In this document: piece by piece, positions 11,066 through 48,485 of the stretch
Position numbering within the stretch: the stretch's first letter is position 1
Layout: every line of letters starts with the position of its first letter
Origin: Hyphomonas adhaerens MHS-3
GTDB taxonomy: Bacteria > Pseudomonadota > Alphaproteobacteria > Caulobacterales > Hyphomonadaceae
Assembly: GCF_000685235.1 (NCBI RefSeq)
Contig: NZ_ARYH01000001.1
Span: 992,001 to 1,056,000 of the forward strand
Length of the DNA: 64,000 nt
Reading direction: 5' to 3'
The notes under the pieces: generated by a model
Databases searched by the model: none
The model's input: only the letters and a program-made list of their open reading frames with translations
Told to the model about the DNA's origin: nothing
Program-made: the position numbers and the translations under genes

Positions 11066-11069
11066 TCCG

Positions 11070-13870: not shown

Positions 13871-14033
13871 CGATTGTGCTTCCTCAACCCGTACCGGCTG
13901 CAACCTTAGGAGCCTTTTCCGGCACGGCAAGCGGCTTGTCGGCCCGGGCGAACCCGGCGCTTGGAGACGTGGCTCGGATTGCTGCGGCGAATAGGCGTTT
14001 CGTCCTGCCGCAAAGCGCGGTAAAGGGGCGGCC

Positions 14034-27919: not shown

Positions 27920-28009
27920 GGTGAGGTGGCCGAGTGGTCGAAGGCGCACGCCTGGAAAGTGTGTAGGCTAGCAATAGTCTCCAGGGTTCGAATCCCTGTC
28001 TCACCGCCA
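27920..28009 (+). tRNA. tRNA-Ser (anticodon GGA)
   Basis: 90 bases including an encoded CCA end. The acceptor stem pairs GGTGAGG with the TCTCACC before the discriminator G. The anticodon arm is CACGC-CTGGAAA-GTGTG with anticodon GGA (reads UCC/UCU). A long variable arm, typical of serine tRNAs, and the T arm GGGTTCGAATCCC follow. No second copy of the 3' end was noticed nearby, so there is no sign of an integrated element. Confidence 0.95.
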
Positions 28010-28201
28010 GCCCTACCTCCGGACAGAGCATGTGACGCCCGCCTGCGCCGAATGCCTTTCACAGGGAAATTCAGCAGATCGGTTGAGGTTACGTTACATT
28101 GCGCAAAATTCCGGCTTGTTATGCCGGTAAAACCACGTTCAATCGCTCTTGCGTATGAAGGGGCTGGCAACTTGGTTTTCCGGATATTTTATCGGCCGTT
28201 G

Positions 28202-29161: not shown

Positions 29162-29196
29162 ACAGAAGAGAGCCTTCTCGCGCGGGCGTGGGGGTA

Positions 29197-31361: not shown

Positions 31362-31402
31362 GGCTACCTCCCTGATTTGGCTGGACATAGGCTCAGGACC
31401 AG

Positions 31403-31417
31403 GTATTCGTCAAATAC
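31403..31417. promoter_or_regulatory. Candidate LysR-type binding box
   Basis: GTATT-CGTCA-AATAC, a perfect dyad that contains the T-N11-A pattern of LysR-type boxes, placed between the divergent aminotransferase (start 31361) and lysR (start 31458) genes. An AT-rich stretch follows it. The TATTCGT half recurs in the dyad at 32412-32437. Confidence 0.5.
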
Positions 31418-31457
31418 AAGAAATTTCCATATGTATAGATATTGGTTATGGTGTGAT

Positions 31458-32408
31458 ATGCTCAGCTACCGGCAGGTCGAAGTCTTCCACGCGATTATGA
31501 TGGCGGGCAGCGTCAGTGGCGCGGCCGAGCGGCTCGGGCTCTCGCAGCCCTCCGTGTCCAAGACACTACAGACAATGGAGTATGACCTCGGCTATTTGCT
31601 GTTCGACCGGATCAAGGGCCGGCTGCAGCCAACCGAGGAAGCGCGGGCGCTTCTGCAGGAGGCCGAGCGGGCCCGTGAGGCATTGCAGGATGTGCGGTCG
31701 TTCGCGCGCAGACTACGCCACGGCGAGGACAGCAAGCTGCGGGTGACCGCAACGCCCGCCCTTGGCCTGCAAGTGCTGCCGGAAGCCGTCTCACGATTCC
31801 GCGAATTGCAGCCGCGAAGCCTGTTCGACATCTCCACCCACCATTCGGGGGCTATCCTCGATACCATTTCCCGCAAGAGTTTTGGCTTCGATGTCGGTTT
31901 CACCTTCGGGGCCGAAGGGGCAGAATCGCCGGTGGGATCTGTAGAGATCGGCTCAGTTTCGCTTGCATGCGTCGCCAAGCGTGGCGTCCTCGACAATTAC
32001 CCGGAAGAGATTGGCCTCGAGGATCTGGCGTCCCTGCCAGTCATCAGCCTGCATGAGAGCGAACCGCTCGGCCGGCTGCTCGCAGAGAAGGCTCGCGAAC
32101 TCGGACTGACCCTGGATACCCAGATACGAGTCCAGACTTATGGAATCGCCTGTGCGCTCGCCGAGCGTGGAGGCGGGCTTGCCATTGTCGATGCGATGAC
32201 CGCAGTCGGTCATGCGCAGAATAATCCCGCCGTTGATCTTCGCCGTTTCGATGCGAGCTTGTCCCTGCCGGTGACCGCTATCTACCCGCTCGCGCGCGGA
32301 TTGCCTGTAAACACAAGGCGGTTCGTCGATGCATTCGCCGAGGTGCTTGATGAGAAGCATGCGAGCTTCCTCGACCGGTCAGCCATAAATCCGGATATGG
32401 ATATATAA
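31458..32408 (+). CDS. LysR-family transcriptional regulator
   Basis: 316 residues from the ATG at 31458; the longer in-frame start at 31344 overlaps the aminotransferase gene and its promoter and is rejected. Residues 1-60 are the winged HTH (MLSYRQVEVFHAIMMAGSVS, GAAERLGLSQPSVSKTLQTM). Residues about 90-300 are the periplasmic-binding-protein-like effector domain. It lies between the divergent BKACE/aminotransferase pair and the TonB receptor-peptidase operon and probably controls one or both. The effector is unknown. Confidence 0.92.
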   Translation: MLSYRQVEVFHAIMMAGSVSGAAERLGLSQPSVSKTLQTMEYDLGYLLFDRIKGRLQPTEEARALLQEAERAREALQDVRSFARRLRHGEDSKLRVTATPALGLQVLPEAVSRFRELQPRSLFDISTHHSGAILDTISRKSFGFDVGFTFGAEGAESPVGSVEIGSVSLACVAKRGVLDNYPEEIGLEDLASLPVISLHESEPLGRLLAEKARELGLTLDTQIRVQTYGIACALAERGGGLAIVDAMTAVGHAQNNPAVDLRRFDASLSLPVTAIYPLARGLPVNTRRFVDAFAEVLDEKHASFLDRSAINPDMDI

Positions 32409-32411
32409 CTA

Positions 32412-32437
32412 AAACGAATAAGATTTTCTATTCGTTT
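32412..32437. promoter_or_regulatory. 9-bp dyad upstream of the TonB receptor operon
   Basis: AAACGAATA and TATTCGTTT are exact inverted repeats around an 8-base A/T-rich spacer. The dyad starts 4 bp after the lysR stop and abuts a candidate -35 box, a usual place for a LysR-type activator. It could also be a weak lysR terminator. Confidence 0.45.
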
Positions 32438-32464
32438 GTCTTGAGTTATGGGTGTCCGTGATAG
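32436..32464 (+). promoter_or_regulatory. Candidate promoter of the receptor-peptidase-GGT operon
   Basis: TTGTCT (32436-32441) and TGATAG (32459-32464) spaced by 17 bases, about 70 bp before the receptor start. The match to consensus is partial, as expected for an activator-dependent promoter. Confidence 0.35.
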
Positions 32465-32533
32465 GACGTGCCCCGGATACGAAAAGAGCAGGGCCGGCCT
32501 CGACAGACTTAATGCGGGGAAGGATCCACAAAA

Positions 32534-35497
32534 ATGAAGATTGTAAGACCAGCACTGCGTGCATTGCTCGTTGCCGGCGTGGCCGGTTCGGCGCTGACTG
32601 CGGTGGCACAGGAAACCGGTACAACTCCAACCGGAGAGGAAACGCGCGTCGAGGACAAGATTGTCGTCGTCGGCTCATACATTCAGGGCGTGGGAGACTC
32701 CGGCGCGCTACCGGTCACCGTTCTGAATCGCGAAGAACTGGATGTCACCGGCGCCTTGTCTACCGGCGACCTGCTGGTGAACATTCCGTCTGTCGGCGAC
32801 ATCGAATTCACCGACGGGAACACCGGCACAAACGGAGCTCGCGGCGATGTCACCGGCATCAATCTGCGCGGCCTGGGATCAGGCCGGTCGCTGGTTCTCG
32901 TCAATGGCCGCCGCATCACGGGTCACCCGCAGTCCGAAGCAGTCGACGGCGTTCCGGTGACCTTCTTCAACGTGAACACCGTTCCCTCGACACTGATCGA
33001 GCGGGTCGAAGTGCTGCGCGACGGCGCATCGGCCCTTTATGGTTCCGATGCAATTGCGGGCGTCGTGAACCTGTCGCTGTTCGGTGATTATGATGAAACC
33101 TACATCACCACCCAGTATGGTGCATCGACTGAGACCGATTTTGCTGAGTATTCGATCGGCGGCCGTACCGGCTTCGAGTTCAATGGCGGCCGGACGCACC
33201 TGACCATCGGCGGCAGCTACTATGGCCGTGACCCGGTCGAGGCGTGCGATGTCAGCGAATGGAATTGCAATCTCGACCGGCGCGACATGCTGCCGGAAGC
33301 CTGGCAGGGTGATACGCAGTTCGACAACCGGTCGACGATCGGTCCCTATGGCCGCTTCCAGGTGGGCGTCCTCAATCCGGACGGCACATTTGACGGAACG
33401 GCCGTTGCTCAAGACGGCACCAACCTGACTACGTCATCCGGCGTGTTCCATATGCAGCCGGATGATTTTCCGGGCAGCCGCGCCTCCATTGGCGGCGGTG
33501 TGTCGATTGACGATGGCTCGCAGGACCGCGATCTGCGCTACAATTTCGCCGAATCGCAGCGCCTGATCCCGGACTCGACCCGCTTTAACCTCGCCGCGAC
33601 TTTCTCGCATGAGCTTAATAGCGGGGTCGAGCTGTTCGGCGAGGCCATGTACTACGAGTCGGATTCGACCACCCAGCGCGCAGCCGGCCCGTTCGACCAG
33701 TCGCTCGCGCTGATCATTGTGCCGGCTTCGAACTACTACAACCCGTTCGGCGCTGTTGGCAGCCCGAACCGCCTGCCGGATATTAATGCGCCTGCGGAAG
33801 GGCTCGACATTGTGATCCAGGGCTATCGGCCGCTGGAAATGGGTCCGCGGATCATCAAGGTGGAGCAGGACCTTTACCGCCTGCTCGGTGGTGCACGCTG
33901 GGACTGGAGCGGCTGGAACGTCGAAACGGCGCTCGGCTATTCCGAAGCCACGGCACGCGATGAGGAATTCAACCGGATTTCAAAAACGCTGCTGCAGGAC
34001 CAGATCTCCCTCAGCACGCCGGATGCCTTCAATCCGTTCGGCGGCCCCGATGTGAACTCCGCAAGCGTCCTTCAGGCGGTCCGCGTGAGTTCGGTGCGCT
34101 ACGGCGAATCATCACTGCTGACGTGGGATGCGAAGGCAACCCGTGACGACCTCTTCTCACTTCCGGGCGGCGATGTCGGCATCGCGGTGGGTATCGATTA
34201 TCGCAGCGAGGAGATTTCTGAAGACAGCGATCCGCGTCTCGATGGCACAATTCAGTTCACGAATGGCGCCATTCCGGACGAGAGCGATCTTGTCGGCGTG
34301 TCGGCGACCCGCGACTTCAGCGGCGACCGGGACGTCTGGTCGGCCTTCACGGAACTGTCTATCCCGATTGTCGGTGAGGGCAACCGCGTGCCGGGCATCT
34401 ATGCTCTCGACCTCCAGCTGGCAGCCCGGTTCGAGGACTCCTCAGACTTCGGCGACACATTCAATCCGAAGATCTCCGGTCACTGGTTCCTGACGCCGGG
34501 GCTTTCTGTTCGGGCAGCTTATGGCGAAGGCTTCCGGGCGCCGAACCTCGTCCAGATCAATCAGGGCACGATCACCCGCCGGAACCAGGGTGATGCCGAC
34601 CTGTATCGTGAGGACGTCGTCGGTACGCCGAATGATGTTGGCGATACGTATCGCCCATCGGTCCGCGAGGGTAATCCTGACCTGGAAGCTGAAGAGAGCG
34701 AAAGCCGCGTTCTCGGCGTTATCTTCCAGCCGGTGGAGGGGCCGCTCGACGGCCTGCGCGTCTCGCTCGACTACTGGAGTGTCGAAACCACCAATGCGAT
34801 CACAACGCTCGGCGTCGACCGTCTTCTGGATGACGACTTTGCCAGCCTGATCGCCGGTGGAGCAGGTAGCCCGAATGTTATCCGGGGTGGACTGACGCAG
34901 GAGGATATCGACGCCTTCGCAGCCTACAATCTGGCGAATCCTTCCGACCAGCGCATGGCCGTTGGTGAAGTGCTCTACGTGATCGACGGATACGTCAATC
35001 TCGATGGGCGCGAGGTTGCCGGCTACGATATTGCGGCGTCCTATGATTTCGATACCAATTCGCTCGGCGATTTCGCAATCGGCGCGTCGGCGACAAAGAT
35101 CGAAACCTATGAGGAAACGCGCGACGGATCCGTGTTCGATGAGTTGCGCCGCAATGGCAATCCGGAATGGCGGGGCAGCCTGTTCGCCCGCTGGAACAAT
35201 GGCCCATGGAAAGCCGGCGCCCAGTTGCGCTATGTTTCGGATGTCTATGACAGCAGTGCCACCAATGATGACACCGGAGATGTCTGGGAAGTGGATAGCT
35301 GGACGAGCGTCAACGGATATGTCGGTTACGGTTTCGAAGGAGAGGGCAGCATCCTGTCAGGCGGCGATGTCCGGCTGGGCGTGCGCAATCTGTTCGACGA
35401 GCTTCCTCCGAAAGCAGACGAATCCGCTGGCTATCTCTCCGGCCTCTACTCGGTAGAAGGGCGTGTCGTCTATCTGCAGCTTTCCAAAACCTTCTAA
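32534..35497 (+). CDS. TonB-dependent receptor (large, 987 residues)
   Basis: Outer-membrane active importer. Signal peptide MKIVRPALRALLVAGVAGSA to about AVAQ, TonB-box-like region with RVEDKIVVVGS, plug domain (about 45-165) with NIPSVGDIEF, INLRGLGSGRSLVLVNGRR and VEVLRDGASALYGSDAIAGV, then a beta barrel ending in the C-terminal aromatic residue VVYLQLSKTF. It has the length and plug signature of the Caulobacter/xanthomonad nutrient receptors. Downstream, two exported lipoprotein peptidases suggest a peptide or gamma-glutamyl substrate. A ribosome-binding site AAGGA precedes the ATG. Confidence 0.93.
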   Translation: MKIVRPALRALLVAGVAGSALTAVAQETGTTPTGEETRVEDKIVVVGSYIQGVGDSGALPVTVLNREELDVTGALSTGDLLVNIPSVGDIEFTDGNTGTNGARGDVTGINLRGLGSGRSLVLVNGRRITGHPQSEAVDGVPVTFFNVNTVPSTLIERVEVLRDGASALYGSDAIAGVVNLSLFGDYDETYITTQYGASTETDFAEYSIGGRTGFEFNGGRTHLTIGGSYYGRDPVEACDVSEWNCNLDRRDMLPEAWQGDTQFDNRSTIGPYGRFQVGVLNPDGTFDGTAVAQDGTNLTTSSGVFHMQPDDFPGSRASIGGGVSIDDGSQDRDLRYNFAESQRLIPDSTRFNLAATFSHELNSGVELFGEAMYYESDSTTQRAAGPFDQSLALIIVPASNYYNPFGAVGSPNRLPDINAPAEGLDIVIQGYRPLEMGPRIIKVEQDLYRLLGGARWDWSGWNVETALGYSEATARDEEFNRISKTLLQDQISLSTPDAFNPFGGPDVNSASVLQAVRVSSVRYGESSLLTWDAKATRDDLFSLPGGDVGIAVGIDYRSEEISEDSDPRLDGTIQFTNGAIPDESDLVGVSATRDFSGDRDVWSAFTELSIPIVGEGNRVPGIYALDLQLAARFEDSSDFGDTFNPKISGHWFLTPGLSVRAAYGEGFRAPNLVQINQGTITRRNQGDADLYREDVVGTPNDVGDTYRPSVREGNPDLEAEESESRVLGVIFQPVEGPLDGLRVSLDYWSVETTNAITTLGVDRLLDDDFASLIAGGAGSPNVIRGGLTQEDIDAFAAYNLANPSDQRMAVGEVLYVIDGYVNLDGREVAGYDIAASYDFDTNSLGDFAIGASATKIETYEETRDGSVFDELRRNGNPEWRGSLFARWNNGPWKAGAQLRYVSDVYDSSATNDDTGDVWEVDSWTSVNGYVGYGFEGEGSILSGGDVRLGVRNLFDELPPKADESAGYLSGLYSVEGRVVYLQLSKTF

Positions 35498-35515
35498 GGG
35501 GATTGGAGACAGGTT

Positions 35516-35541
35516 CGGCCGGGGTGACGCGATCCCGGCCG
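35516..35541 (+). terminator. Intercistronic hairpin after the TonB receptor gene
   Basis: CGGCCGGG and CCCGGCCG enclose a 10-base loop, 18 bp after the receptor stop and 46 bp before the M14 gene. No T-tract follows. A partial terminator or 3'-stabilising hairpin that keeps receptor levels above the downstream enzymes is likely. Confidence 0.5.
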
Positions 35542-35587
35542 GACACCTTTACGCATGTTCGTTGTCCGTTCGGAGAGAGGTACCTCC

Positions 35588-36823
35588 ATGGCCATGCTGA
35601 CGCCTTCAGTATTACTGCGGACCATCGGCAGCCTTTTCGGACTTGCGCTGGCCGCGGGTTGTGTGACGGCAGGCTCGTCCGGGCCTGAAAGTATCGGAGC
35701 CTTTCAGCTCGGACCGGTCTGTGCCTATGAGTCCCTCCGCTTTGATGGATCCATCGGGACGGGCCGCCTCAATGGCTGCCGTCGCGATGGCCCAGAGACT
35801 TTTACATTGTATATCCATCCGGAAGACGCGCCGATCAATCCGAGCAGCTGGTACGCGTTCAGCCTGACAAGCGACACTCAGACCCATCTCGACCTGACAC
35901 TGGCCTATGCGCACGGACGCCACCGCTACGCACCGCATATCAGCAGTGATGGCGGGCAGACCTGGCGCACGATCGATATGGTCGAAGGCGCGGACACGGA
36001 TCGGGCACGCTTTGGACTGGACATCGCTCCGGGTACGACACTTATCAGCGCACAGCCGCGCAGAAACCTGGCAGATCGCCAGGCGTGGATCGACGGGATC
36101 GCGGCCATGCCCGGCGTCACCCGCACGCGATACGGCACTTCCGAGCAGGGGAGATCGCTCGAAGGGCTGGAATTTGGCGCTGAGGACAAGCCCGCACTCA
36201 TCCTGACTGGTGGGCAACACCCCCCTGAAGTGCGCGGCGCAATCGCGATGGAGAGTTTTGTCGAGCGTCTGCTCGAAGACGATATGCTTGCCCGCGCGTT
36301 TCGCGAACAGTTCCGCGTCGTTCTCGGTCCGGTAATCAATCCGGACGGGATTGCCGAAGGTCACTGGCGGCACAATTCGCGCGGCGTCGATGTGAACCGC
36401 GACTGGGGGCCGTTTACACAGGCCGAGACCCGCAGCTTTAAGGAATGGATCGACGGCCGGGTTTTCCCCATCGCCTTGCTTGATTTTCACGGCACCTGGA
36501 ACAGCGTCCTGTACACTTCGCCGGATGAAGGCGAAGGAGACCGCAACTGGTTTCCCGGGGCCTTTCATGCCAGCCTGGCCGAGGTGCTTGGTGAGGATGC
36601 GCCGGCGCGCGTGCAGGGGCACAATGCCGGCAGCAGCGTCGCCAAGAACTGGTTTCACGAGACCTATGCGATCCCCACTATAACGTATGAAGTCGGTGAT
36701 GCTGTGCCGCTTGAGGCAGTGCTGTCCAGAGCCCGGCTGAGTGCAGAAATCACCATGCGGCTCCTCTTGGAAGGACCGCCGGACCAACCCGATGATGCCC
36801 AGGATGGAGAAATCCCGAAATGA
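35588..36823 (+). CDS. M14-family zinc carboxypeptidase lipoprotein
   Basis: 411 residues from the ATG at 35588, which follows an AGAGAGG site; lipobox LAAGC (Cys 25). Residues 40-170 form an N-terminal beta domain as in AGBL-type carboxypeptidases. The catalytic domain has the zinc ligands His 211 and Glu 214 (GGQHPPEVRG) and His 301 (LLDFHGTW), the substrate-binding NSRGVDVNRDW segment and the catalytic Glu 368 in ITYEVGD. It should hydrolyse C-terminal or side-chain amino acids in the periplasm or at the outer membrane. The stop overlaps the gamma-glutamyltransferase start by four bases. Confidence 0.88.
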   Translation: MAMLTPSVLLRTIGSLFGLALAAGCVTAGSSGPESIGAFQLGPVCAYESLRFDGSIGTGRLNGCRRDGPETFTLYIHPEDAPINPSSWYAFSLTSDTQTHLDLTLAYAHGRHRYAPHISSDGGQTWRTIDMVEGADTDRARFGLDIAPGTTLISAQPRRNLADRQAWIDGIAAMPGVTRTRYGTSEQGRSLEGLEFGAEDKPALILTGGQHPPEVRGAIAMESFVERLLEDDMLARAFREQFRVVLGPVINPDGIAEGHWRHNSRGVDVNRDWGPFTQAETRSFKEWIDGRVFPIALLDFHGTWNSVLYTSPDEGEGDRNWFPGAFHASLAEVLGEDAPARVQGHNAGSSVAKNWFHETYAIPTITYEVGDAVPLEAVLSRARLSAEITMRLLLEGPPDQPDDAQDGEIPK

Positions 36824-38448
36824 AGTTTGCCCGCCCCCTCGCTGTCTCCGGTACGGTCACGTGCCTGTTCCTTGCGGCGTGTGCCACCTCCGCGTCTGCT
36901 CCACAGCTCACCTATGGGGTCGTTTCGTCGGCCTCGCCCGAGGCGACCGCTGCTGGCGTGGAAATCCTTGAGCGCGGTGGCAACGCAATCGATGCCGCCG
37001 CAGCGGTCCAGTTTGCGCTGGGCGTGACCGAACCGGCAATGTCCGGCCTTGGCGGGCAGACTCAGATCGTGCTTCAGAAACCGGGCGAGCCGGCCATCGT
37101 CATCAACGGAACGTCATTTGCCCCTGCCGGTATTCCGGACGTGGTTGCGGAACAGGATCTCAAGACCAGCTATTCCGCGACAACCGTTCCGTCCACGGTG
37201 AAAGTCATGGACTTCGCCATGCGCAATTATGGCAGCGGAAACGTTTCCTGGGCAGACACGCTGGCGCCAGCCATCCGGTATGCAGATGCTGGTTTCGTCA
37301 TCGGTTCATTCCGGGCGCGGGTCTATTCACGCCACGAGACTGACGTGCGCGCCAATCAGACGGTCGCCCGGCTTTTTCTCAATCCGGATGGTACCCTGCC
37401 ACAGCTCGGAGATGTCTTGCGCCAACCTGTCCTTGCCGCGACGCTCCGGCGCCTCGCTGAGGCCGGCGCAGACGACTTCTATACCGGCGAGATCGCCGCA
37501 AAGATCGCGGAAGACATGGCGGCCAATGGCGGATGGATCACGCTGGAAGACCTTGCCAGTACGCCAGATCCGGTCGTGATGGCGCCGCTGACAACCTCCT
37601 ATCGTGGTTTTGAAGTTTCCACGCTTCCGCCGCCAGCTGGTGGCTGGGTTGTGCTACAGGCCTTGAATCTTCTGGAGCAGACGCAGGCTGAAGACCTGGA
37701 TGAGGCAGATGCGACCCGCGCCGCGGCGCTCCTGGTCGCGCTCGATATTGCGCACACCTCCCGCGCGGAAAATCCTGAACTTGACCTTGTGTCTTTCGGC
37801 GCGGACATGTCCCACCGTATCGACAAGGCGACAGCCGTGGCTCTTCTAGAAGACCGGGATCATGGCGAGACAACCCACTTCTCCGTTGTGGACAAGGACG
37901 GTATGGCGGTCTCCGTCACATCGAGCATCGATTCCTATTTTGGCTCTCGCGCGGCCAGCCCGGAACTTGGGTTCCTTTACAACAACTACATGCAGACATT
38001 TGAGCTGGCACCGGGCGAGACCTTCTCTCTCGCGTCGCATGCCATGCCGTATTCTTCCATGAGTACCAGCATTGTCTCAAAGGACGGTCAGCCCGTTCTG
38101 GTCCTGGGCAGCCCCGGCAGTGCACGGATCATTTCAGCTGTGACCCAGGTGATCAGCCACTGGGTGGATGTCGATGAAGGCATCGAGACGGCGGTCGCAG
38201 CCCCGCGCGTTCACGTTGTGATCGACCGCAAGGATGGGCGCGACAATGCCTATGTCGAGCAGATGGTGGAAGGCCTGGATGTCGATGCTCTGGGGTTCGA
38301 CCTTGCCAATCCTCAGACAGACCTCATTCAGAACGGCCTGAACGCATATTTCGGCGGTGTCCACGCCATCGCGCTGGAAGAGGGCGGCTGGCGCGGCGCT
38401 GCTGACCCGCGCCGGGACGGGACTGTTGGATACGCAGGCGACAGGTAG
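36820..38448 (+). CDS. Gamma-glutamyltransferase lipoprotein
   Basis: 542 residues with a lipoprotein signal ending in LAAC (Cys 21). Ntn hydrolase that is autocleaved before the nucleophile Thr 351 in DHGETTHFSVVD, giving large (about 20-350) and small (351-542) subunits. Other marks are GGNAIDAAAAVQFALGVTEP, MSGLGGQ and SMSTSIVSKDGQPVLVLGSPG. It transfers or hydrolyses gamma-glutamyl groups, for example of glutathione, outside the cytoplasm. The M14 carboxypeptidase gene overlaps it, so both enzymes act on material brought near the surface together with the TonB receptor. Confidence 0.93.
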   Translation: MKFARPLAVSGTVTCLFLAACATSASAPQLTYGVVSSASPEATAAGVEILERGGNAIDAAAAVQFALGVTEPAMSGLGGQTQIVLQKPGEPAIVINGTSFAPAGIPDVVAEQDLKTSYSATTVPSTVKVMDFAMRNYGSGNVSWADTLAPAIRYADAGFVIGSFRARVYSRHETDVRANQTVARLFLNPDGTLPQLGDVLRQPVLAATLRRLAEAGADDFYTGEIAAKIAEDMAANGGWITLEDLASTPDPVVMAPLTTSYRGFEVSTLPPPAGGWVVLQALNLLEQTQAEDLDEADATRAAALLVALDIAHTSRAENPELDLVSFGADMSHRIDKATAVALLEDRDHGETTHFSVVDKDGMAVSVTSSIDSYFGSRAASPELGFLYNNYMQTFELAPGETFSLASHAMPYSSMSTSIVSKDGQPVLVLGSPGSARIISAVTQVISHWVDVDEGIETAVAAPRVHVVIDRKDGRDNAYVEQMVEGLDVDALGFDLANPQTDLIQNGLNAYFGGVHAIALEEGGWRGAADPRRDGTVGYAGDR

Positions 38449-38592
38449 AACAGGCGTAAGGCAGGCGGGGTGAGGGCTGCTTTTTCACAGTGCGAGGCCG
38501 CTTGGCCTGAGCCGTGTGGACAGATCGGAGCCCGGGAACTGCTCGGCTGCGAGAATGGAGATGCGCGCGCTTTCGTCTGTCGGCACCGCCAG

Positions 38593-40221
38593 CTAGAAGC
38601 GGAAAATCTCGGCCAGCCAGCGAAGCAGGGGCCGGTGGATCGTTGTTTCAACGGCCGCGCCGGGCGCATCGGCATATTCCTCCGACAGCCGGATGCTCAG
38701 CTGGGCATATCGCTCAGGGTTGAGGTCCCGGCTGTAAAGCTTGTTTTCGCTCGATAGCTGGATCGTCGTGCTGATATCGGCGATCGTCGCGTTCTGGTCC
38801 CGCCGGCCATCGGCCAGCCTCACGCTGACGCGCTGGCCGACCTTCAGGCGTCTTGCACCTGCATGGGTCACAAACGCCGAGACCATGCGCGTTTCTCCGA
38901 TCGCCTCAAGGCGCATGAGCGGCTCGTGCGCCGTCACACGCTCACCCGGCTGGAGGATGATTTCAGACACACGGCAATTACAGGGGCTGACGACTGACAG
39001 CTCATCGAGCCGGCTTCTGAGCCCGTCAATTTTGACCTCGGCTGCGGCAATTTCCTGTTCGGTTTCGCGAATGGTCACCTGCAGGGTCGCCGGTTCATAT
39101 CCCGTTGCTCTGGCATTGCCGGTGAAGTAGCCCGACCGCGCTGCACTGAGTCGCGACCGTGCATCTTCAACATCGCGTTCAGCCTGACCGATACGCTCGG
39201 TAATCTCCGCTACTGCCTGTTCCGCATTTGTACGGGTGCTGAGGGGGACCAGACCGGGTGTGGAGACCGACCTCAGCTTTTCCACCTCGGCCATGGCTGC
39301 CGAGAGTGATTGCTGCAATTCATCCCGGCGAGCTTGTGCCTTCCGGAGGGCTCGGACCGCCTGCGACGATTCCGTTTCCAACATGCCGCTACGGCCGTCG
39401 AGGATAGCATGCAGACCCTCCAGCCGAACCTCCATGACACGTTTGTTGGCTTCGGCGTCTGCAAGCTCAGCTTCGAGTGGCCGGTTTGACAAGGTCGCGA
39501 TCGTTTCGCCCGGCGTCACCTGTGTGCCTTCGTCGGCAAGGATATTCTTCACGACCGATGGCTCCGGCGCACTGATCTCGATCAGCTGCGTGTCCACCCA
39601 TGCGGCAACACTGCTGACGCTTGTCATGGCCAGGATCGAGGCTCTGGCACTCAACAAGGCCAGCACCGCCAGAAGCGCGAAGATGCCCCGTCGGACAAAT
39701 ACCTTGCGCCGGCCGATCCGAAGGACGTGGTCGACCTCTTCCTCGCTGGTCGCAGATGATGCGCCTGCGCTGACATTGCGGAGCACACCATCGACGTTTT
39801 TGAGTTTACCCGACAAATGTGCGCTGGAAATGAACCCCAGTGCACGCACCTCTTCAGGAGTCAGACCCGAGAATGTGAAGGCAGCTTCCCGCTTCTCCGG
39901 ATAAAGCCTCAGAAGCTCTGCATGCGTCTCAAACTTGAATTCGAAATCCGAGATTTGGACAGAGACCGTCGCCCGGACCTTCTCTCCTGCCAGCGCAAGT
40001 TGACGCACTTCGCCGATCCTGAAACCGCTGAGAGACCAATCAAGAGCCGGATAGGCGTGACCGTTGATCTCTATGGTCAGAGGCGCGGAATAGCGCGGAT
40101 ACTTGCGTTTATCGCGCCCGGCTGCCTCCATCGCATCTCCAAGCGATACGAAGTCTCCCGCCTCTGCCTTTTCGGCAGGCTTGTTCGGTTGTGCGTCTTC
40201 GGGGCGTTTGTTTGCGCTCAT
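38593..40221 (-). CDS. Alg44-like PilZ-HlyD membrane fusion protein (c-di-GMP receptor)
   Basis: 542 residues from the ATG at 40221; the longer in-frame reading into the glycosyltransferase gene is rejected. Residues 35-125 form a PilZ domain with both c-di-GMP motifs, RKYPR (RxxxR, 39-43) and DWSLSG (DxSxxG, 61-66). One transmembrane helix is at about 178-199. A periplasmic HlyD-like part follows: a biotinyl-lipoyl-like strand region (about 213-245), a long coiled coil (about 247-420) and a beta-barrel (VSPCNCRVSEIILQPGERVT). The architecture is that of alginate co-polymerase Alg44. It should gate the adjacent Alg8-like synthase in response to c-di-GMP. Confidence 0.85.
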   Translation of the reverse strand: MSANKRPEDAQPNKPAEKAEAGDFVSLGDAMEAAGRDKRKYPRYSAPLTIEINGHAYPALDWSLSGFRIGEVRQLALAGEKVRATVSVQISDFEFKFETHAELLRLYPEKREAAFTFSGLTPEEVRALGFISSAHLSGKLKNVDGVLRNVSAGASSATSEEEVDHVLRIGRRKVFVRRGIFALLAVLALLSARASILAMTSVSSVAAWVDTQLIEISAPEPSVVKNILADEGTQVTPGETIATLSNRPLEAELADAEANKRVMEVRLEGLHAILDGRSGMLETESSQAVRALRKAQARRDELQQSLSAAMAEVEKLRSVSTPGLVPLSTRTNAEQAVAEITERIGQAERDVEDARSRLSAARSGYFTGNARATGYEPATLQVTIRETEQEIAAAEVKIDGLRSRLDELSVVSPCNCRVSEIILQPGERVTAHEPLMRLEAIGETRMVSAFVTHAGARRLKVGQRVSVRLADGRRDQNATIADISTTIQLSSENKLYSRDLNPERYAQLSIRLSEEYADAPGAAVETTIHRPLLRWLAEIFRF

Positions 40222-40232
40222 AGTATTCCGGG

Positions 40233-41822
40233 TCAGGTTCTGGCGGCGATGGCTGCAAAAGTTATCATTGAACAAATGAAGATCGTAATAACCAGGCCCT
40301 TGAGCCAGTCTCCATGAATCGATGTCCGCAACTGGTGGACGGCCGCGGTGCCTGAATCGATATTCTGTCGTGTCCATTTCTGCCGATCGAGATGGAACAA
40401 GACCTGGATCTTGATGAACGAGCCCACGAATTGCTGATGCAAAAGGAGCAAAGGCACGAACGGTGAAGCAAGGCCGCCCTGGTGCGCGACATTGACGGTC
40501 TGGATGAACCGCGTCGCCAGCACGATGGACAGATAAGCCGGAAGTGCGACCCATTGGCCCTGCAGCAAAAAGAAGGCGAGGAAGATCGGGCCGGTCAGGC
40601 TGGTCCACATGCTGAGGCGCTGGTCCACGAGGCACCACCAGGTAAACAGCCCCATACGCCGGGGTCCCAGCGCGATCGCCCGGTCGGAATTGCGGAGCAT
40701 GTTGCCGAACCAGCGCTGCATCAGCTGAGCGGATGCATTCAGGAAGCCGCCTTTCGGCAATTCTTCCATGCAACTGACATAGGTGTCGGGCAGGTAGATC
40801 ATTGCCCATCCGTCCTTGAGGCAATGATACCAGGTCGACTTGTCATCACCCGTCAGCATCGGGAGTTTCCCAAGCCGCCAATGGTTCAGAATGTCCAGCT
40901 GCAGGCGGTCCACAAATGCTGTGTCCAGTGCGACACTTGCGCGGAAGACCGAGAACCGCCCGGTCAGGCACAGAACCCGGCGGGAGAGGCTCAGCGAACT
41001 CATATACAGATTTCGCAGCGCAAATCGCATGGCGTACCAGGTCTGCGCCAGGGCGCCGCCACGTACTTCAGCCGCGTTGTTGACCGTGAGGGCAGCCAGG
41101 TCCGGCATCATGGTGAAGAAGGGACAGGTCTTCTCCATCAGGCCGGGTGTGACGACGGTATCGCCATCCATGAGGACGACGATGCCTTCGCCGGTTTCAT
41201 TGCTGCGCTGCAGGGCTCGCAGCGCAGCAGCCATTGCGTCGCGCTTCCCGGTTCCGGCCTGGAGCTGGGTGATGAGATCGATATGTCCCGGCAGCTTTGC
41301 CTCGTTGAAGATCTGGTGGATGAGGCGGGCATCTCCGTCATCGGTCACCGAGGCCACCACTGTGGCCGGCACACCGTAGGCGGCAAGTTCCTGAAACAGG
41401 GAAGAGTAGACGCCAAAATTTTCCGACGCCGACATCTGATAGGAGGTCACAACGACACCGACATGTTCCGGCAGTGTCGAGGGATCGGCAGCGACCGTCG
41501 TGGCCTGCCGGCGTAATCGGGGAAAGACCTTGTTCCTGTAGTGCTCCGCCCGCAAAAAATGTGTCAGCTGCCAGCCATATCGCCAGGTTGCGATGAATCC
41601 CAGTGGCCAGACGATATGATCTATCCCGTGCACGGGCGATTGCGACAGGGTCACGGCAAGCAGGAACAGGAATGCTGTGACGTAAACGGACCAACTCAGG
41701 GAATACGTTGCAAACGCCACATAAAGGCGCCGGACTTCATTGCCCGCCCGTTTGACACCGTCGGCCAGCCACCCTGTTGCGTCACTCCATGGCGCAGGAA
41801 GGGAAGTTGCCTCTGAACGCAT
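40233..41822 (-). CDS. Alg8-like processive glycosyltransferase (GT2)
   Basis: 529 residues. Two transmembrane helices at about 40-60 and 70-90, a GT2 catalytic domain (about 115-375) and further helices at about 408-465 and near the C terminus. Catalytic marks are VTDDGDARL, GTGKRDAMAAALRAL, the DGD motif (Asp 219/221), TGDDKSTWYHCL with the candidate base, and QLMQRW (366-371) at the place of the QxxRW motif. Long stretches such as YMSSLSLSRRVLCLTGRFSV and LNHWRLGKLPMLTGDDKS follow the mannuronan synthase Alg8. It probably polymerises a beta-linked sugar or uronate and extrudes it; the sugar is unknown. It starts the operon, and the Alg44-like gene follows after 11 bp. Confidence 0.85.
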   Translation of the reverse strand: MRSEATSLPAPWSDATGWLADGVKRAGNEVRRLYVAFATYSLSWSVYVTAFLFLLAVTLSQSPVHGIDHIVWPLGFIATWRYGWQLTHFLRAEHYRNKVFPRLRRQATTVAADPSTLPEHVGVVVTSYQMSASENFGVYSSLFQELAAYGVPATVVASVTDDGDARLIHQIFNEAKLPGHIDLITQLQAGTGKRDAMAAALRALQRSNETGEGIVVLMDGDTVVTPGLMEKTCPFFTMMPDLAALTVNNAAEVRGGALAQTWYAMRFALRNLYMSSLSLSRRVLCLTGRFSVFRASVALDTAFVDRLQLDILNHWRLGKLPMLTGDDKSTWYHCLKDGWAMIYLPDTYVSCMEELPKGGFLNASAQLMQRWFGNMLRNSDRAIALGPRRMGLFTWWCLVDQRLSMWTSLTGPIFLAFFLLQGQWVALPAYLSIVLATRFIQTVNVAHQGGLASPFVPLLLLHQQFVGSFIKIQVLFHLDRQKWTRQNIDSGTAAVHQLRTSIHGDWLKGLVITIFICSMITFAAIAART

Positions 41823-41841
41823 TTAAAACACCGTTTATTCT

Positions 41842-41859
41842 ACAAGCTCAGAAGCTTGT
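41842..41859. promoter_or_regulatory. 7-bp dyad just upstream of the Alg8-like gene
   Basis: ACAAGCT-CAGA-AGCTTGT, a perfect inverted repeat 20 bp before the start codon and next to an A/T-rich stretch (41865-41880) that may hold the -10 element. On the transcript it would be a hairpin in the leader. An operator or leader structure for c-di-GMP-related control is possible; no T-tract supports a terminator. Confidence 0.5.
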
Positions 41860-42017
41860 CCGGCATTATTATTTATATTGTGTTCCGTTCCTGGTTGCGA
41901 TGGGCTGGGGCGGACGGGCGAAACGGGCTTCAGGGGCGAGGCTCCCGCGCCCGGTCTTCAATTTCGGAGACGGGTTCGGAAGGGTCTGCCTGCCTTACCA
42001 GTCAGCACCTGTTTTCC

Positions 42018-43415
42018 TTATTCTTCGCTCCAGGTGCCCAGTGCTTTGTAGAGGGCGATGCTGTTCAGACTGTTTTCGAGATTCGCCTGGATCAGCTGTT
42101 GCTGGGCGCTATAGTATTCACGCTGGGCATCGAGGACCGTCAGGTATCCATCAAGACCGGATTTGAACCGTTCTCCGGACAGCTCAAACGTGACCTGCGT
42201 ATCCTCCGCAAGCTGTTGGAGGGCATTCAGGCGCCGGTCAATCGTGTCGGCAATCGCAGCAGCATCGGCGACTTCCCGGAAAGCCTGCTGGATCGTACTC
42301 TGATAAGTCGCAAGGGCGGCATCGGCATCTGCGCGGGCGGCGTCCAGATTTCCGCGCCGCCGGTCAAAGTCAAAAATCGGCAGGTCGATGGCGGGTGTGA
42401 AGGTCCATCCGGTCGATCCGTCGCCATTGAAAAGGTCATCGAGTGAGCCGCTGGCTGCACCGACACCTCCCGTCAATGAAATGCTTGGGAAATAGGCAGC
42501 CCGGGCGGCGCCGATATTTGCATTGGACGCTCGCAGGCGGGCTTCCGCGGCGCGCACGTCCGGTCTTTCCAGCAGGACAAGAGAAGACTGGCCGACGGGC
42601 AGGTTCAGCGCGACCGGGGCAGGGAGGAGGCTGACCTCGCCCAGAATCGCAGTGGGCAGCGGAGCGCCAACAAGCAATTGCAGGGCGTTGACGTCCCGGC
42701 GTACCGCCGCCTCATACTGGGCCGCCTGCGCCTGTGCCCGCGCAACGGATGCGGAGGCGCGGCGCACATCCAGTTCGCTGGCGGTTCCGGCTGCAAACAA
42801 TTCCCGCGTCAGATCGAGACTTTCGGTCTGGCTCTCCGCCGTGCGATTGGCGAGTTTCAGGAGTTCATGGTCGGCAGCCAGCTGCATCCAGGTTTCGGCG
42901 ACCGTTCCGGCGAGGGAAATCTTTGCGGCACGCTCGCCTTCTTCGCTCGCAAGATATGCCTGAAGGGCCGCGTCGTTGAGGTTGCGAATCCGGCCAAAGA
43001 AATCCAGCTCCCATGCGGAGACGCCGATCTGACCGTAGGTGCTGTCATCGAAGCGATTTGCGCCAGTTGTGCCTTCGTCGAACGTGTCGCCGGTTTGTGC
43101 ACTGGCGCTGGCCCCCACGGCAGGCCAGAGCGCGGAGCGGGAGACGAGCAGGTTTGCCCGTGCCGCACGCACATTGGCGGCGGTGGCGCGCAGGTCGCGG
43201 TTCTGTTCCAGCGCAATGCCGATGACCTGCTTCAGGGCAGGCGAGGTGACCACGTCGTTCCACAGGAGGGGCGCGGCGGGTGCCGCATCAGGTGTGGCGC
43301 CAGGCAGATCGGCCGGAACAGGCAGATCACCCGCCTGGTACGCGGGCGCAAGATTGACGCAGCCGGCCAGCATCAATGTGCCCAGGGCGGTTGCGAGGAG
43401 TGCGTTGGATCTCAT
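42018..43415 (-). CDS. RND efflux outer-membrane factor lipoprotein (NodT/OprM family)
   Basis: 465 residues with a lipoprotein signal and lipobox LAGC (MRSNALLATALGTLMLAGC). Two OEP repeats of about 200 residues, each with long helices (LKQVIGIALEQNRDLRATAA and LRASNANIGAARAAYFPSIS). TolC-like trimers of this type form the exit duct of tripartite pumps. Start overlaps the pump gene stop by four bases, so it is the third gene of the operon. Confidence 0.93.
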   Translation of the reverse strand: MRSNALLATALGTLMLAGCVNLAPAYQAGDLPVPADLPGATPDAAPAAPLLWNDVVTSPALKQVIGIALEQNRDLRATAANVRAARANLLVSRSALWPAVGASASAQTGDTFDEGTTGANRFDDSTYGQIGVSAWELDFFGRIRNLNDAALQAYLASEEGERAAKISLAGTVAETWMQLAADHELLKLANRTAESQTESLDLTRELFAAGTASELDVRRASASVARAQAQAAQYEAAVRRDVNALQLLVGAPLPTAILGEVSLLPAPVALNLPVGQSSLVLLERPDVRAAEARLRASNANIGAARAAYFPSISLTGGVGAASGSLDDLFNGDGSTGWTFTPAIDLPIFDFDRRRGNLDAARADADAALATYQSTIQQAFREVADAAAIADTIDRRLNALQQLAEDTQVTFELSGERFKSGLDGYLTVLDAQREYYSAQQQLIQANLENSLNSIALYKALGTWSEE

Positions 43416-46400
43416 GCGGGGGTCTCCGCTTGTTTGTCGGGGCCGGAAAAGCGATTGGTGAGTTTGCGGACGATCACATAGAACACCGGCGCAAACAGCA
43501 GACTGAATGTCATGGCTGCAATCACGCCTCCCAGCACGATGATGCCGATGGCATTCCGGCCCGCTGCCCCGGCGCCCGTGCTGAGCGCGAGTGGCAGGAC
43601 ACCGAAGCCAAAGGCGAATGACGTCATCAGGACCGGGCGTATCCGCAAGCGCACGGCTTCAATCGATGCCTCGACCAGTTCCTTGCCCTGTTGCTCCAGA
43701 GAGCGGGCGAATTCGATGATCAGGATCGCGTTTTTCGAAGCAAGCCCAACAGTGGTCAACAAGCCGACCTGGAAGAAGACGTCATTGGAGAGACCTGCAA
43801 AGCTGGCGCCAGCAACGGCGCCGGCAACACCCAGCGGGGCAACAAGCAGGACCGAGATTGGAACCGTCCAGCTTTCGTACAGGGCTGCGAGACAGAGGAA
43901 GACAAACAGAACCGAGATGCCGTAGAGGGCCATGGCCTGATTGCCTGATTCACGTTCCTGGCGGCTGAGACCGCTCCACGCATATCCGATGCCTTCCGGG
44001 AGTTTCGAAACCAGCTCCTCCATCGCCACCATGGCAACACCAGAGCTTTGTCCCGGTGCTGCGGATCCCTGGATGTTGAAAGCCGGGACACCGTCAAAGC
44101 GCTGCAGTTGCGGTGGGCCGTAAGTCCAGTTCGTGCTGGCAATTTCACCCAATGGGGCCATTTGTCCGGTGTTTGTCCGGACAAACCAGTCACTGACATC
44201 GTCCGGTTGCATCCGGTCCTCTGCAGCGCCCTGCACATAAACCCGCTTGATGCGTCCACGGTCAATAAAGTCGTTTACATAGGTGCCGCCGAAAGCGACG
44301 GACAGCAGGTTGGTCGCGTCCGAAATGGATACGCCGAGCGCCTGAGCTTTCTGGTAGTCCAGATCAATGTTGAACTGCGGGCCGTCTTCCAGACCGTTCG
44401 GACGAACGCCGGTCAGCCGCGGATCCTGGCTCGCCATGCCCAGCAATTGGTTACGGATATTCATGAACTCTTCGTGGGTGTAACGTCCGTCATTCTGCAG
44501 GAACATGTCGAAACCGCTGGAGTTTCCGAGTTCGCGAATCGCGGGAGGCGAGATGGCGAACACCTGCGCTTCTTCGATCTGGGACAGTGCGCCCATCGCG
44601 CGCCCGACAATTGCCTGCACGGAGTTTTCCTTGCCGGGCCGTTCAGACCAGTCCTTCAGCGCTGCGAAGGCGATCCCGTTGTTCTGGCCCTGTCCCGCGA
44701 AGCTGAAACCGGCAAGCGCGAAAATACCTCTGACGTTGTCGCCTTCATTCGTCTGATAATAGTCGACAACTTCCTGCATGACATCTGCTGTCCGCTCGAG
44801 GCTGGCATTGGCCGGCAACTGGGCGAGCGTGAAGTAGCTGCCCTGGTCCTCATCCGGCAGGAAGGATGCGGGCAAGCGGATGAAGGCGAACCCTGTCAGG
44901 ATGATGATTGCGGTAAATCCGACCAGCATGACCGACTTGCGGCGCAGGGCCCGCGTGACGACGGCCTCATAGGCCTGGGAGAGCTTGTCGAACCCGTTAT
45001 TGAAAATACGTGCCGGGGCCGCCATCAGCGGATGAGCCTCACCATGGCTCGGCTTGAGGATCGTTGCGCACAGGGCAGGGGAAAGGATAATCGCTACCAG
45101 CACTGACAGAGTCATCGCCGAAACGATCGTCACCGAGAACTGACGGTAGATCACGCCTGCCGATCCCGGGAAGAAGGCCATCGGAATGAAGACGGCCGAA
45201 AGCACAACAGCGATGCCGACGAGTGCGCCGGTAATCTGCTCCATCGACCGGACGGTCGCCTCTCGCGGTGGCAGCTTGTCCTGAGACATCACCCGTTCGA
45301 CGTTTTCGACCACCACAATGGCGTCATCGACCAGGAGGCCAATGGCGAGCACCATGGCGAACATGGTGAGCGTATTGATGGACATGCCCATTATGAGCAG
45401 GACGGCGAACGTCCCGAGCAGAACCACAGGTACGGCGATCAGCGGGATGAAAGAGGCGCGGAAACTCTGCAGGAATACGAAGATGACGATAAAGACGAGC
45501 CCGATGGCTTCGAACAGGGTCTTCTGGACTTCGTGGATCGAGGTTTCGATGAAGGGGGTGGTGTCAACCGGAAACGCATATTCCATGTCTTCCGGAAAAT
45601 TGCCGGACATCGCCTCGACGGCGGACTTCACGCGCTCGGCTGTATCCAGCGCGTTGGCGCCCGTAGCGAGCGACACGGCGAAGCCAGTCGCCGGATACCC
45701 GTTGAACCGGGAAATGAAGGCATAATTTTCCGCCCCCAGTTCGATATCGGCGACATCGTCCAGCCGGACAGACCCACCTTCCGGTGTTGTTCGCAGGAGA
45801 AGGTTCCTGAACTGCTCTGGTGAGGAGAGGAGGGATTGCAGGGTAATGGTGACATTGATCTCCTGCCCTTCGACCGAAGGGGCTCCGCCGAGTGCGCCAG
45901 ATGAGATCTGTGCGTTCTGGTCACGGATCGCCTGCACCACGTCGCCCGGCATCAGATTGTATTCGACGAGTTTTTCTGGCTTCAGCCAGACGCGGATTGC
46001 ATAGGGTGAGCCGAATGCCGTGACACTGCCGACGCCGTCCAGACGGCTGATCGTGTCATACATGTTGGAGCGGACATAATCGCCAAGGTCCGTCTGGTCG
46101 AATGTTCCGCCCGGGGAATAAAGGGACGTAATCAGGAGGAAGCCAGTGCTGGCCTTGCTGACCGTCACACCTTGCCGCTGTACCTGTTCCGGCAGGAAGG
46201 GGGTCGCCAGCGACAGCTTGTTCTGCACCTGCACTTGGGCGATGTCCGGGTTCGTGCCCGGACGAAAAGCAAGCGTAAGGGACGCAGATCCATCAGAGCT
46301 GGATGTCGAGTTGACATAGTCCAGCCCGTCCAGCCCGGTCATTTGCTGCTCAATGATCTGAGTAACGGAGTTTTCTACCGCTTGTGCGGAGGCACCGGGA

Positions 46401-46546
46401 TAGTTCGCCATGACACTGATCGTCGTTGGCGCGACGTCGGGATACTGTGCGACCGGCAGCGTGCGGAGAGCGAGCCCACCCGCAAGCATGATAAGGATCG
46501 CGATCACCCAGGCGAAGACCGGGCGGTCGATGAAGAACTTTGCCAT
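43412..46546 (-). CDS. RND multidrug efflux permease (HAE1 family)
   Basis: 1044 residues, the size of AcrB/MexB. It begins MAKFFIDRPVFAWVIAILIM and has the TM4 proton relay GLLVDDAIVVVENVERVM with two Asp residues, plus two large periplasmic loops typical of the family. It exports hydrophobic or amphiphilic compounds using proton motive force. The adaptor gene lies 18 bp upstream and the outer-membrane factor overlaps its stop. Confidence 0.96.
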   Translation of the reverse strand: MAKFFIDRPVFAWVIAILIMLAGGLALRTLPVAQYPDVAPTTISVMANYPGASAQAVENSVTQIIEQQMTGLDGLDYVNSTSSSDGSASLTLAFRPGTNPDIAQVQVQNKLSLATPFLPEQVQRQGVTVSKASTGFLLITSLYSPGGTFDQTDLGDYVRSNMYDTISRLDGVGSVTAFGSPYAIRVWLKPEKLVEYNLMPGDVVQAIRDQNAQISSGALGGAPSVEGQEINVTITLQSLLSSPEQFRNLLLRTTPEGGSVRLDDVADIELGAENYAFISRFNGYPATGFAVSLATGANALDTAERVKSAVEAMSGNFPEDMEYAFPVDTTPFIETSIHEVQKTLFEAIGLVFIVIFVFLQSFRASFIPLIAVPVVLLGTFAVLLIMGMSINTLTMFAMVLAIGLLVDDAIVVVENVERVMSQDKLPPREATVRSMEQITGALVGIAVVLSAVFIPMAFFPGSAGVIYRQFSVTIVSAMTLSVLVAIILSPALCATILKPSHGEAHPLMAAPARIFNNGFDKLSQAYEAVVTRALRRKSVMLVGFTAIIILTGFAFIRLPASFLPDEDQGSYFTLAQLPANASLERTADVMQEVVDYYQTNEGDNVRGIFALAGFSFAGQGQNNGIAFAALKDWSERPGKENSVQAIVGRAMGALSQIEEAQVFAISPPAIRELGNSSGFDMFLQNDGRYTHEEFMNIRNQLLGMASQDPRLTGVRPNGLEDGPQFNIDLDYQKAQALGVSISDATNLLSVAFGGTYVNDFIDRGRIKRVYVQGAAEDRMQPDDVSDWFVRTNTGQMAPLGEIASTNWTYGPPQLQRFDGVPAFNIQGSAAPGQSSGVAMVAMEELVSKLPEGIGYAWSGLSRQERESGNQAMALYGISVLFVFLCLAALYESWTVPISVLLVAPLGVAGAVAGASFAGLSNDVFFQVGLLTTVGLASKNAILIIEFARSLEQQGKELVEASIEAVRLRIRPVLMTSFAFGFGVLPLALSTGAGAAGRNAIGIIVLGGVIAAMTFSLLFAPVFYVIVRKLTNRFSGPDKQAETPA

Positions 46547-46564
46547 CAGACTTACCTGTGTATG

Positions 46565-47746
46565 TTATTTCGATCCGCCGCGCGTCTCTTTCGCGGCGGA
46601 GGTCTGCTCGCTGGCGGGTTCAGGCTGAACCTTCATGCCGTCGCGGATGGATTGCAGGTTCGCTGTCGCGACCTGTTCTCCGGCATTCAGGCCACTCAGA
46701 ACCGTCCAGGTGTTGTCAGTATTCTGCTCAACCGTGATCCGTCTCTGCCGGACCGTTCCGTCCTTATCCACAACCATGACGGTGGCATCGCCAGTGGGCG
46801 TGCGGGAAACAACGGACTGAGGCAGGGTCGCCACGTTCTCATAATAACCGGCGATGAACTTGGCCCGGACGAACATGCCCGGCAGTATCATGTCTTCGGG
46901 ATTGGGAACGACAACCCGCACGGCCACGGTGCCTGCACTTTCTTCAACATTCACTTCGCTGAATTCGAGGTCGCCTGCCTGGGGGTAGGGGGTTCCGTCG
47001 CCCAGAATGATGTCGACGGGGACCGTGTTCTGGTCGGTGGTTGCGATTTCGCCGTCGGCAATCTGTTGGCGCCAGCTCAGGAGGCGTGCGCTGGACACGG
47101 TCAGGTCGACATAGATCGGGTTGGTCTGCAGGACGCGGGCGAGTGGTTCAGTCTGGTTCTGAGTCACAAGGGCACCCTGTGTAACGGACGAGCGGCCGAT
47201 ACGCCCTTCGATCGGGGAAGAGATCTTGGTGCGTGCCAGATCAATGCGCGCGCGGTCGAGGGCGGCTTTCTGAATACCGATGTCGGCATCCGCCTGGCTG
47301 GCAGATGCGACGGCCTGATCGTATTCCTGTTGGCTGACGGCATTGATGCTGGCCAGCCGTTCGAAACGTGCAGCCGTTTCGCGGGCAACGGCAGCGGTGG
47401 CCTCGGCGCGCGTCAGGGCGGCTTCGGCACTACGAACAGCGGCAGAATATTCAGCGGCGTCTATCTGGTATAGCGCCTGGCCCTTCTTGACTGTGTCGCC
47501 TTCCTTGAACAGGCGCTCGCTGATGATGCCGGTGACCTGCGGACGGATCTCCGCTTCGGCATAGGCGCGGGCACGTCCGGACAATTCAATCACATTCGGC
47601 ACGTCGGTCAGGCGGACCGTCATGGTCTGGACGACGGGTGCGGGAGGTGCGGTCGCTTGCTGCCCGGCCGTCTCACCACCGCAAGCGGCGAGCACGATGG
47701 CCGTGGCGAGCAAGAGGGCTGGCATGCTCTTCTTGGCGGTCTGCAT
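46565..47746 (-). CDS. RND efflux periplasmic adaptor lipoprotein
   Basis: 393 residues with a lipoprotein signal (MQTAKKSMPALLLATAIVLAAC). Adaptor order: beta strand with VIELSGRARAYAEAEIRPQV, lipoyl half (KEGDTVKKGQALYQID), alpha-helical hairpin (about 100-165), second lipoyl half (ISSPIEGRIGRSSVTQGALV), and C-terminal beta barrel (VRVVVPNPEDMILPGMFVRA). It bridges pump and outer-membrane factor. First gene of the efflux operon; the divergent TetR gene probably represses it. Confidence 0.95.
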   Translation of the reverse strand: MQTAKKSMPALLLATAIVLAACGGETAGQQATAPPAPVVQTMTVRLTDVPNVIELSGRARAYAEAEIRPQVTGIISERLFKEGDTVKKGQALYQIDAAEYSAAVRSAEAALTRAEATAAVARETAARFERLASINAVSQQEYDQAVASASQADADIGIQKAALDRARIDLARTKISSPIEGRIGRSSVTQGALVTQNQTEPLARVLQTNPIYVDLTVSSARLLSWRQQIADGEIATTDQNTVPVDIILGDGTPYPQAGDLEFSEVNVEESAGTVAVRVVVPNPEDMILPGMFVRAKFIAGYYENVATLPQSVVSRTPTGDATVMVVDKDGTVRQRRITVEQNTDNTWTVLSGLNAGEQVATANLQSIRDGMKVQPEPASEQTSAAKETRGGSK

Positions 47747-47864: not shown

Positions 47865-48485
47865 ATGGGTGAAATGCCCGTGTCGAAGACGGCTGCAAAA
47901 CGCGAGGCGCGGATCTGCGAGATCCTCTCCTGTGCAGAAAAACACTTTTCAAACAAGGGATTCCATGGTGCCGGCATTTCCGGTATCGCGGCTGATTGCG
48001 GTATCAGCGTGGGGCATCTCTATCACTATTTTGGTAGTAAGGATGAGTTGATCCTGGCGGTTGTGAAATCGGAGATGGGACGTCAGGACGAGAGTATCAC
48101 GGCCTTCGAAGACCTGTCTCCTGAAAACCTGCGGTTGGAAATGGCTGAGCTTACGACAGCAATTTTTTCGACCGACGCGGAGCCTTTCCGGACGGTCCTG
48201 AACTTTGAAATCCTGGCCGAAGCACAAAGAAACCCTGAAGTTGCGGCGCTTCTTCAACAGCAGGATACTCAGATGCGGCGCCGATTCGTGACCATACTTC
48301 GGCGCGCGGGGATCGATGACCCTGAAACGCGGACGGAACTGATCTTCACCATCTTTTCCGGCCTCTCGGCGCGGGCCCTGCGTCATCCGGAACAGGAACG
48401 CGCGGCGTTGCTGGAAGTCATTAAGGACGTGATCCTGAAAATTCTTGGTGATAAGCAGGTGGCGTCCGGTGCACTCAGCGCATGA
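47865..48485 (+). CDS. TetR-family regulator of the divergent efflux operon
   Basis: 206 residues; the ATG follows a GGGGGAG site. The N-terminal HTH is clear (ILSCAEKHFSNKGFHGAGIS then IAADCGISVGHLYHYFGSKD). The ligand domain (about 70-200) ends in a TetR_C-type helical bundle. Its gene is back to back with the RND operon with 118 bp between, the normal place for the local repressor. The stop is 35 bp before the chosen start of a CoA transferase, with which it probably shares a transcript. Confidence 0.9.
   Translation: MGEMPVSKTAAKREARICEILSCAEKHFSNKGFHGAGISGIAADCGISVGHLYHYFGSKDELILAVVKSEMGRQDESITAFEDLSPENLRLEMAELTTAIFSTDAEPFRTVLNFEILAEAQRNPEVAALLQQQDTQMRRRFVTILRRAGIDDPETRTELIFTIFSGLSARALRHPEQERAALLEVIKDVILKILGDKQVASGALSA

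Follow-up and report, generated by a model that had tools for sequence, protein, structure and literature searches.

In the 64,000-nucleotide stretch of DNA from the marine bacterium Hyphomonas adhaerens MHS-3 analysed here (the window), an alg8/alg44-like gene pair is present as a cassette at a tRNA-Ser gene, and its Alg44-like product has a long alpha-hairpin of the EmrA type. Both features are described here as new. In our main reading, to which we assign a probability of roughly 0.55, the pair encodes a c-di-GMP-gated processive synthase, the Alg44-like protein docks on a TolC-like duct, and the product is not standard alginate. The features of the window used in the analysis were the following (basis in brackets).

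27920..28009, plus strand: tRNA-Ser(GGA), where the alg8-alg44 cassette and a second island are inserted
38593..40221, minus strand: Alg44-like PilZ-TM-HlyD protein (P0002), 542 aa (Pfam, profile, model)
39004..39483, minus strand: predicted long periplasmic alpha-hairpin, about residues 247-406 (model; spacing in homologues)
39628..39693, minus strand: predicted transmembrane helix, about residues 177-198 (model; homologue hydropathy)
40024..40041, minus strand: DxSxxG motif, DWSLSG, residues 61-66 (sequence)
40093..40107, minus strand: RxxxR motif, RKYPR, residues 39-43 (sequence)
40233..41822, minus strand: Alg8-like GT2, putative processive polysaccharide synthase (P0001), 529 aa (Pfam, alignment, fold)
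41823..42017, no strand: spacer separating alg8 from oep; some 60 bp beside alg8 are AT-rich and may hold a promoter of its own
42018..47746, minus strand: efflux operon oep-rnd-mfp, next to the pair and independent of it (Pfam, comparison)
47865..48485, plus strand: divergent TetR gene, putative regulator of the efflux operon (Pfam, comparison)

The alg8 and alg44 reading frames lie on the same strand and are separated by 11 bp. P0001 matched the Pfam family Glyco_tranf_2_3 (E 7e-34), and the motifs DGD (219-221), GDD (325-327) and RW (370-371) are conserved in it. Relatives with 41-45% identity are found in complete alginate clusters of Roseobacteraceae. These GT2 catalytic motifs and the sequence relation to Alg8 place the protein in the Alg8 family, and the long matches to Alg8 reported in the initial annotation were borne out. 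A search of the PDB by sequence gave no matches, and no fitting NCBIfam name was obtained in the annotation search. Structure comparison identified hyaluronan synthase as the nearest fold, followed by BcsA. As suggested by this fold, the enzyme would polymerise a nucleotide sugar and pass the chain through a channel that the enzyme itself forms in the membrane.

In P0002 Pfam detected HlyD_3. On P0002 the Pfam PilZ family (PF07238) fell short of the E 0.001 threshold, which it passed on the homologues L042, L046 and L067. When a profile of the P0002 family was used, PilZ structures of Pseudomonas aeruginosa Alg44 were the first matches (4XRN, E 1.3e-16), and the AlphaFold model of P0002 superimposed on the Alg44 PilZ domain with TM scores up to 0.86. 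The protein thus has the architecture of the Alg44 family, an N-terminal PilZ domain with RxxxR and DxSxxG, a single transmembrane segment and a HlyD part, in the order that had been read from the letters at first. The PilZ motifs are also retained in the close homologues, and the possibility that all of these had lost them did not materialise. The Alg44 proteins of three Roseobacteraceae alginate clusters (L010, L012, L014) lack both RxxxR and DxSxxG. In PilZ motifs and fold, and in the arrangement of a GT2 next to a PilZ-TM-HlyD protein, the pair resembles Pseudomonas Alg8-Alg44 (PilZ structures 4RT0 and 4XRN). By analogy with Pseudomonas Alg44, the PilZ domain would sense c-di-GMP and switch the synthase on. 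The genome contains 12 GGDEF matches.

The model of P0002 shows, in this order, PilZ, the transmembrane segment, a helical hairpin at about residues 247-406 and beta domains, with a mean pLDDT of 72 and a pTM of 0.41, which makes the relative positions of the domains unreliable. The best structural match of the modelled periplasmic half was EmrA of EmrAB-TolC, with which it shares a long alpha-hairpin between the lipoyl halves. P0002 differs from EmrA in carrying a PilZ domain; we know of no such domain in EmrA, which serves a small-molecule transporter. As a proxy for hairpin length, the distance between the transmembrane segment and a conserved PCxC motif was compared across the sampled Alg44 loci. 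It was 233-239 in Hyphomonas, L042, L046, L047/L048, L054/L074 and L067. Nineteen loci that have a GDP-mannose dehydrogenase (GMD) gave 76-111, and loci with UDP-glucose dehydrogenase (UGD) and/or a PF05426 lyase gave 110-162. The rule is not strict, because L061 (144) and L058 (185), both labelled GMD, are longer, and L050, L053, L056 and L065 have a short Alg44 despite missing the alginate genes sought. Five further loci in the sample, which have no genes for alginate export, share the long hairpin, and the Alg44 proteins of standard alginate loci, including those of the Pseudomonas family, lack it. No description of an Alg44 with an EmrA-type hairpin was found in open-licence papers. The EmrA/HlyD-type adaptor half probably docks by its hairpin on a TolC-like outer-membrane factor, which would replace AlgK/AlgE. 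Four OEP matches were found in the genome.

The initial annotation had stated that alginate genes were missing from the window, and tblastn of the window agreed: no homologue of AlgD, AlgA, AlgG, AlgI, AlgF, AlgJ/X-like proteins or Sel1 was detected, nor was AlgK or AlgX. The pair may be a minimal machine. At genome scale the search covered AlgD, the AlgE-family porin, AlgI, PF05426 lyases and a second alg8. The nearest AlgD-like protein is 36% identical to Loktanella AlgD, a query that was itself checked to be a GDP-mannose dehydrogenase. This sole AlgD-like enzyme of the genome proved to be a UDP-glucose dehydrogenase, since it matched 4A7P at E 3e-206 and GDP-mannose dehydrogenase only at 5e-57. 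As no GDP-mannose dehydrogenase was found genome-wide, the Hyphomonas product is unlikely to be mannuronan synthesised by the established route. The AlgE-family porin model PF13372 had no match in the genome; since it also missed the Loktanella alginate plasmid, this absence is weak evidence and not proof. A full alginate cluster elsewhere with its own alg8 and alg44 was not encountered, and a second alginate locus was rejected because neither a second alg8 nor a GDP-mannose dehydrogenase was found. The failure to find a GDP-mannose dehydrogenase or an AlgE-family porin distinguishes the Hyphomonas genome from the Pseudomonas system.

It is nevertheless conceivable that the pair belongs to a reduced alginate system, in which an unrecognised dehydrogenase provides the GDP-mannuronate for mannuronan synthesis and the polymer leaves through an unrecognised porin. 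The conserved catalytic motifs of Alg8 and the occurrence of close homologues within alginate clusters would fit this, as would an AlgI-like MBOAT protein encoded on contig 4 (L133 8131-10600; 39% identity to Loktanella AlgI). The MBOAT gene lies beside that of an unnamed 356-aa partner, and the locus is also present in G004. However, it is absent from G006 and G018, both of which carry the pair, and the nature of the only AlgD-like protein, the unmatched porin and the position of the synthase outside the canonical alginate clade (see below) also speak against the proposal, which we consider unlikely. Alginate operons of atypical make-up, in which algKE or the modification genes are missing, are already on record (PMC7112194), and like these the Hyphomonas pair is a synthase locus without outer-membrane transport genes. 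Hyphomonas is not mentioned in that source, and its account of the atypical operons describes neither the hairpin nor a missing dehydrogenase.

In a tree of 54 synthases the Hyphomonas sequences grouped with those of L042 and L063, outside the clade (99/100) that contains the alginate loci of Pseudomonas type, of Rhizobium and of Roseobacter. Counting against the main reading, a long-branched clade linked to GMD also fell on the same side as Hyphomonas. Synthases adjoining ugd and lyase genes formed a separate clade. In L161, L163 and L164, from three genera that belong to a single family of another class, the genes are arranged on one strand as ugd-alg8-alg44-PL14-PL5-Sel1. L044 contains the same families with ugd following alg44; its PF05426 protein was also considered as PL38-type, and this was rejected because PL5-type structures matched far better. 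The six-gene operon is a candidate locus for a polymer made from UDP-GlcA, which may be glucuronan.

For the Hyphomonas product, a polymer of a UDP-sugar is the leading though tentative candidate. Glucuronan is one such candidate because sister synthases sit in this operon, but for Hyphomonas it is a guess. Matrix polymers of Hyphomonas have been reported to be acidic (PMC5852497). Against the main reading, this genome has no detected uronate lyase (no PF05426 match). Among 42 Hyphomonas genomes PF05426 was found in three, none of them a carrier of the pair, and PL14 in none; no control genome matched PL14 either, which leaves its absence unproven. That the pair stands for a class of synthases, in which an Alg44 with its PilZ sensor in an EmrA-type adaptor connects an Alg8-like glucuronan synthase to TolC-like ducts without AlgK/AlgE, is put forward as a tentative idea, with the odds against it.

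The product could instead be a neutral glucan or another polymer of UDP-hexose, a housekeeping precursor. No uronate gene is linked to the Hyphomonas pair, and a precedent exists in bgsBA, by which Sinorhizobium and Rhizobium make a mixed-linkage beta-glucan, a two-gene, c-di-GMP-activated unit of a GT2 and a HlyD-type protein (PMC9495663), a mode of activation that the Hyphomonas pair would share. But c-di-GMP sensing in that system resides in the C-terminal domain of BgsA itself (PMC9495663), whereas the PilZ domain of the Hyphomonas pair is on the adaptor, and those relatives that do have linked sugar genes carry uronate-forming dehydrogenases. A neutral product seems to us as improbable as the reduced alginate system.

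The site of the pair was compared among Hyphomonas genomes. The 3' end of tRNA-Ser(GGA) is directly adjoined by the end of alg44 in G006, G018 and G004. In G036, G444, G032 and G035 the site is empty, and the tRNA gene is followed directly by oep of the TetR/mfp/rnd/oep operon. This indicated that the pair is a two-gene cassette, gained or lost as such, and that the RND operon lies beside it because both flank the tRNA-Ser insertion site, not because they form a shared unit. In the window a 10.6-kb segment (28002-38593) encoding a TonB receptor, an M14 peptidase and a gamma-glutamyltransferase lies between tRNA-Ser and alg44. It is flanked by a direct repeat, CACCGCCAGC, at 28002 and 38584, and is absent at this place from G006, G018 and G004. 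G027 and G031 have other genes at the same tRNA-Ser site (L119 7840-10556 and L122 9156-10646), including an acetyl-CoA hydrolase/transferase-like one. On the other side of the pair, the AT-rich stretch of about 60 bp upstream of alg8 is conserved in G006 and G018. It contains an imperfect inverted repeat around AAGCTTCTGAGCTT; a scan for consensus promoters and terminators yielded nothing above chance.

This comparison bears on the possibility that the synthase pair and the adjoining RND operon act as one export unit. The two are on the same strand and adjoin each other in three of the four Hyphomonas carriers, and the closest non-Hyphomonas relative, L042, likewise has an mfp-rnd pair directly upstream (10669-14865). 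That pair is a different one, however, its RND protein being only about 25% identical to that of the window. In G004 about 18 kb of other genes separate alg8 from the RND operon, and in the four genomes with the empty site the operon stands alone. Moreover, RND pumps transport small molecules. A joint unit is thus quite unlikely, and the operon as dedicated exporter ceased to be the leading candidate after the empty-site comparison. The initial suggestion of a borrowed exporter, possibly the nearby outer-membrane factor, held in part: borrowing of a TolC-like factor gained support from the EmrA-type hairpin, but the adjoining factor turned out to be a neighbour by position only.

The pair was detected in 4 of the 37 Hyphomonas genomes searched, and a homologue was present in 24 of 385 genomes sampled across the class. 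In all four Hyphomonas carriers both genes are full length and free of stops, with dN/dS values of 0.09-0.15; the pair is intact and under purifying selection. These values and the lack of stops led to the rejection of a decaying remnant. In spite of the few species carrying the pair and the missing pathway genes, it is highly improbable, given also the conserved catalytic and PilZ motifs, that the pair is what is left of an acquired cluster and no longer functions.

If the main reading of a c-di-GMP-gated synthase docking on a TolC-like duct is true, the Alg8/Alg44 module would be movable as a two-gene cassette and could be adapted to an efflux duct of general use, and homology to Alg8 would by itself be no predictor of alginate. 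The genes of glucuronan synthesis were stated to be unknown in a 2023 paper (PMC10180729), and the ugd-alg8-alg44-PL14-PL5-Sel1 operon may be a concrete candidate for them.
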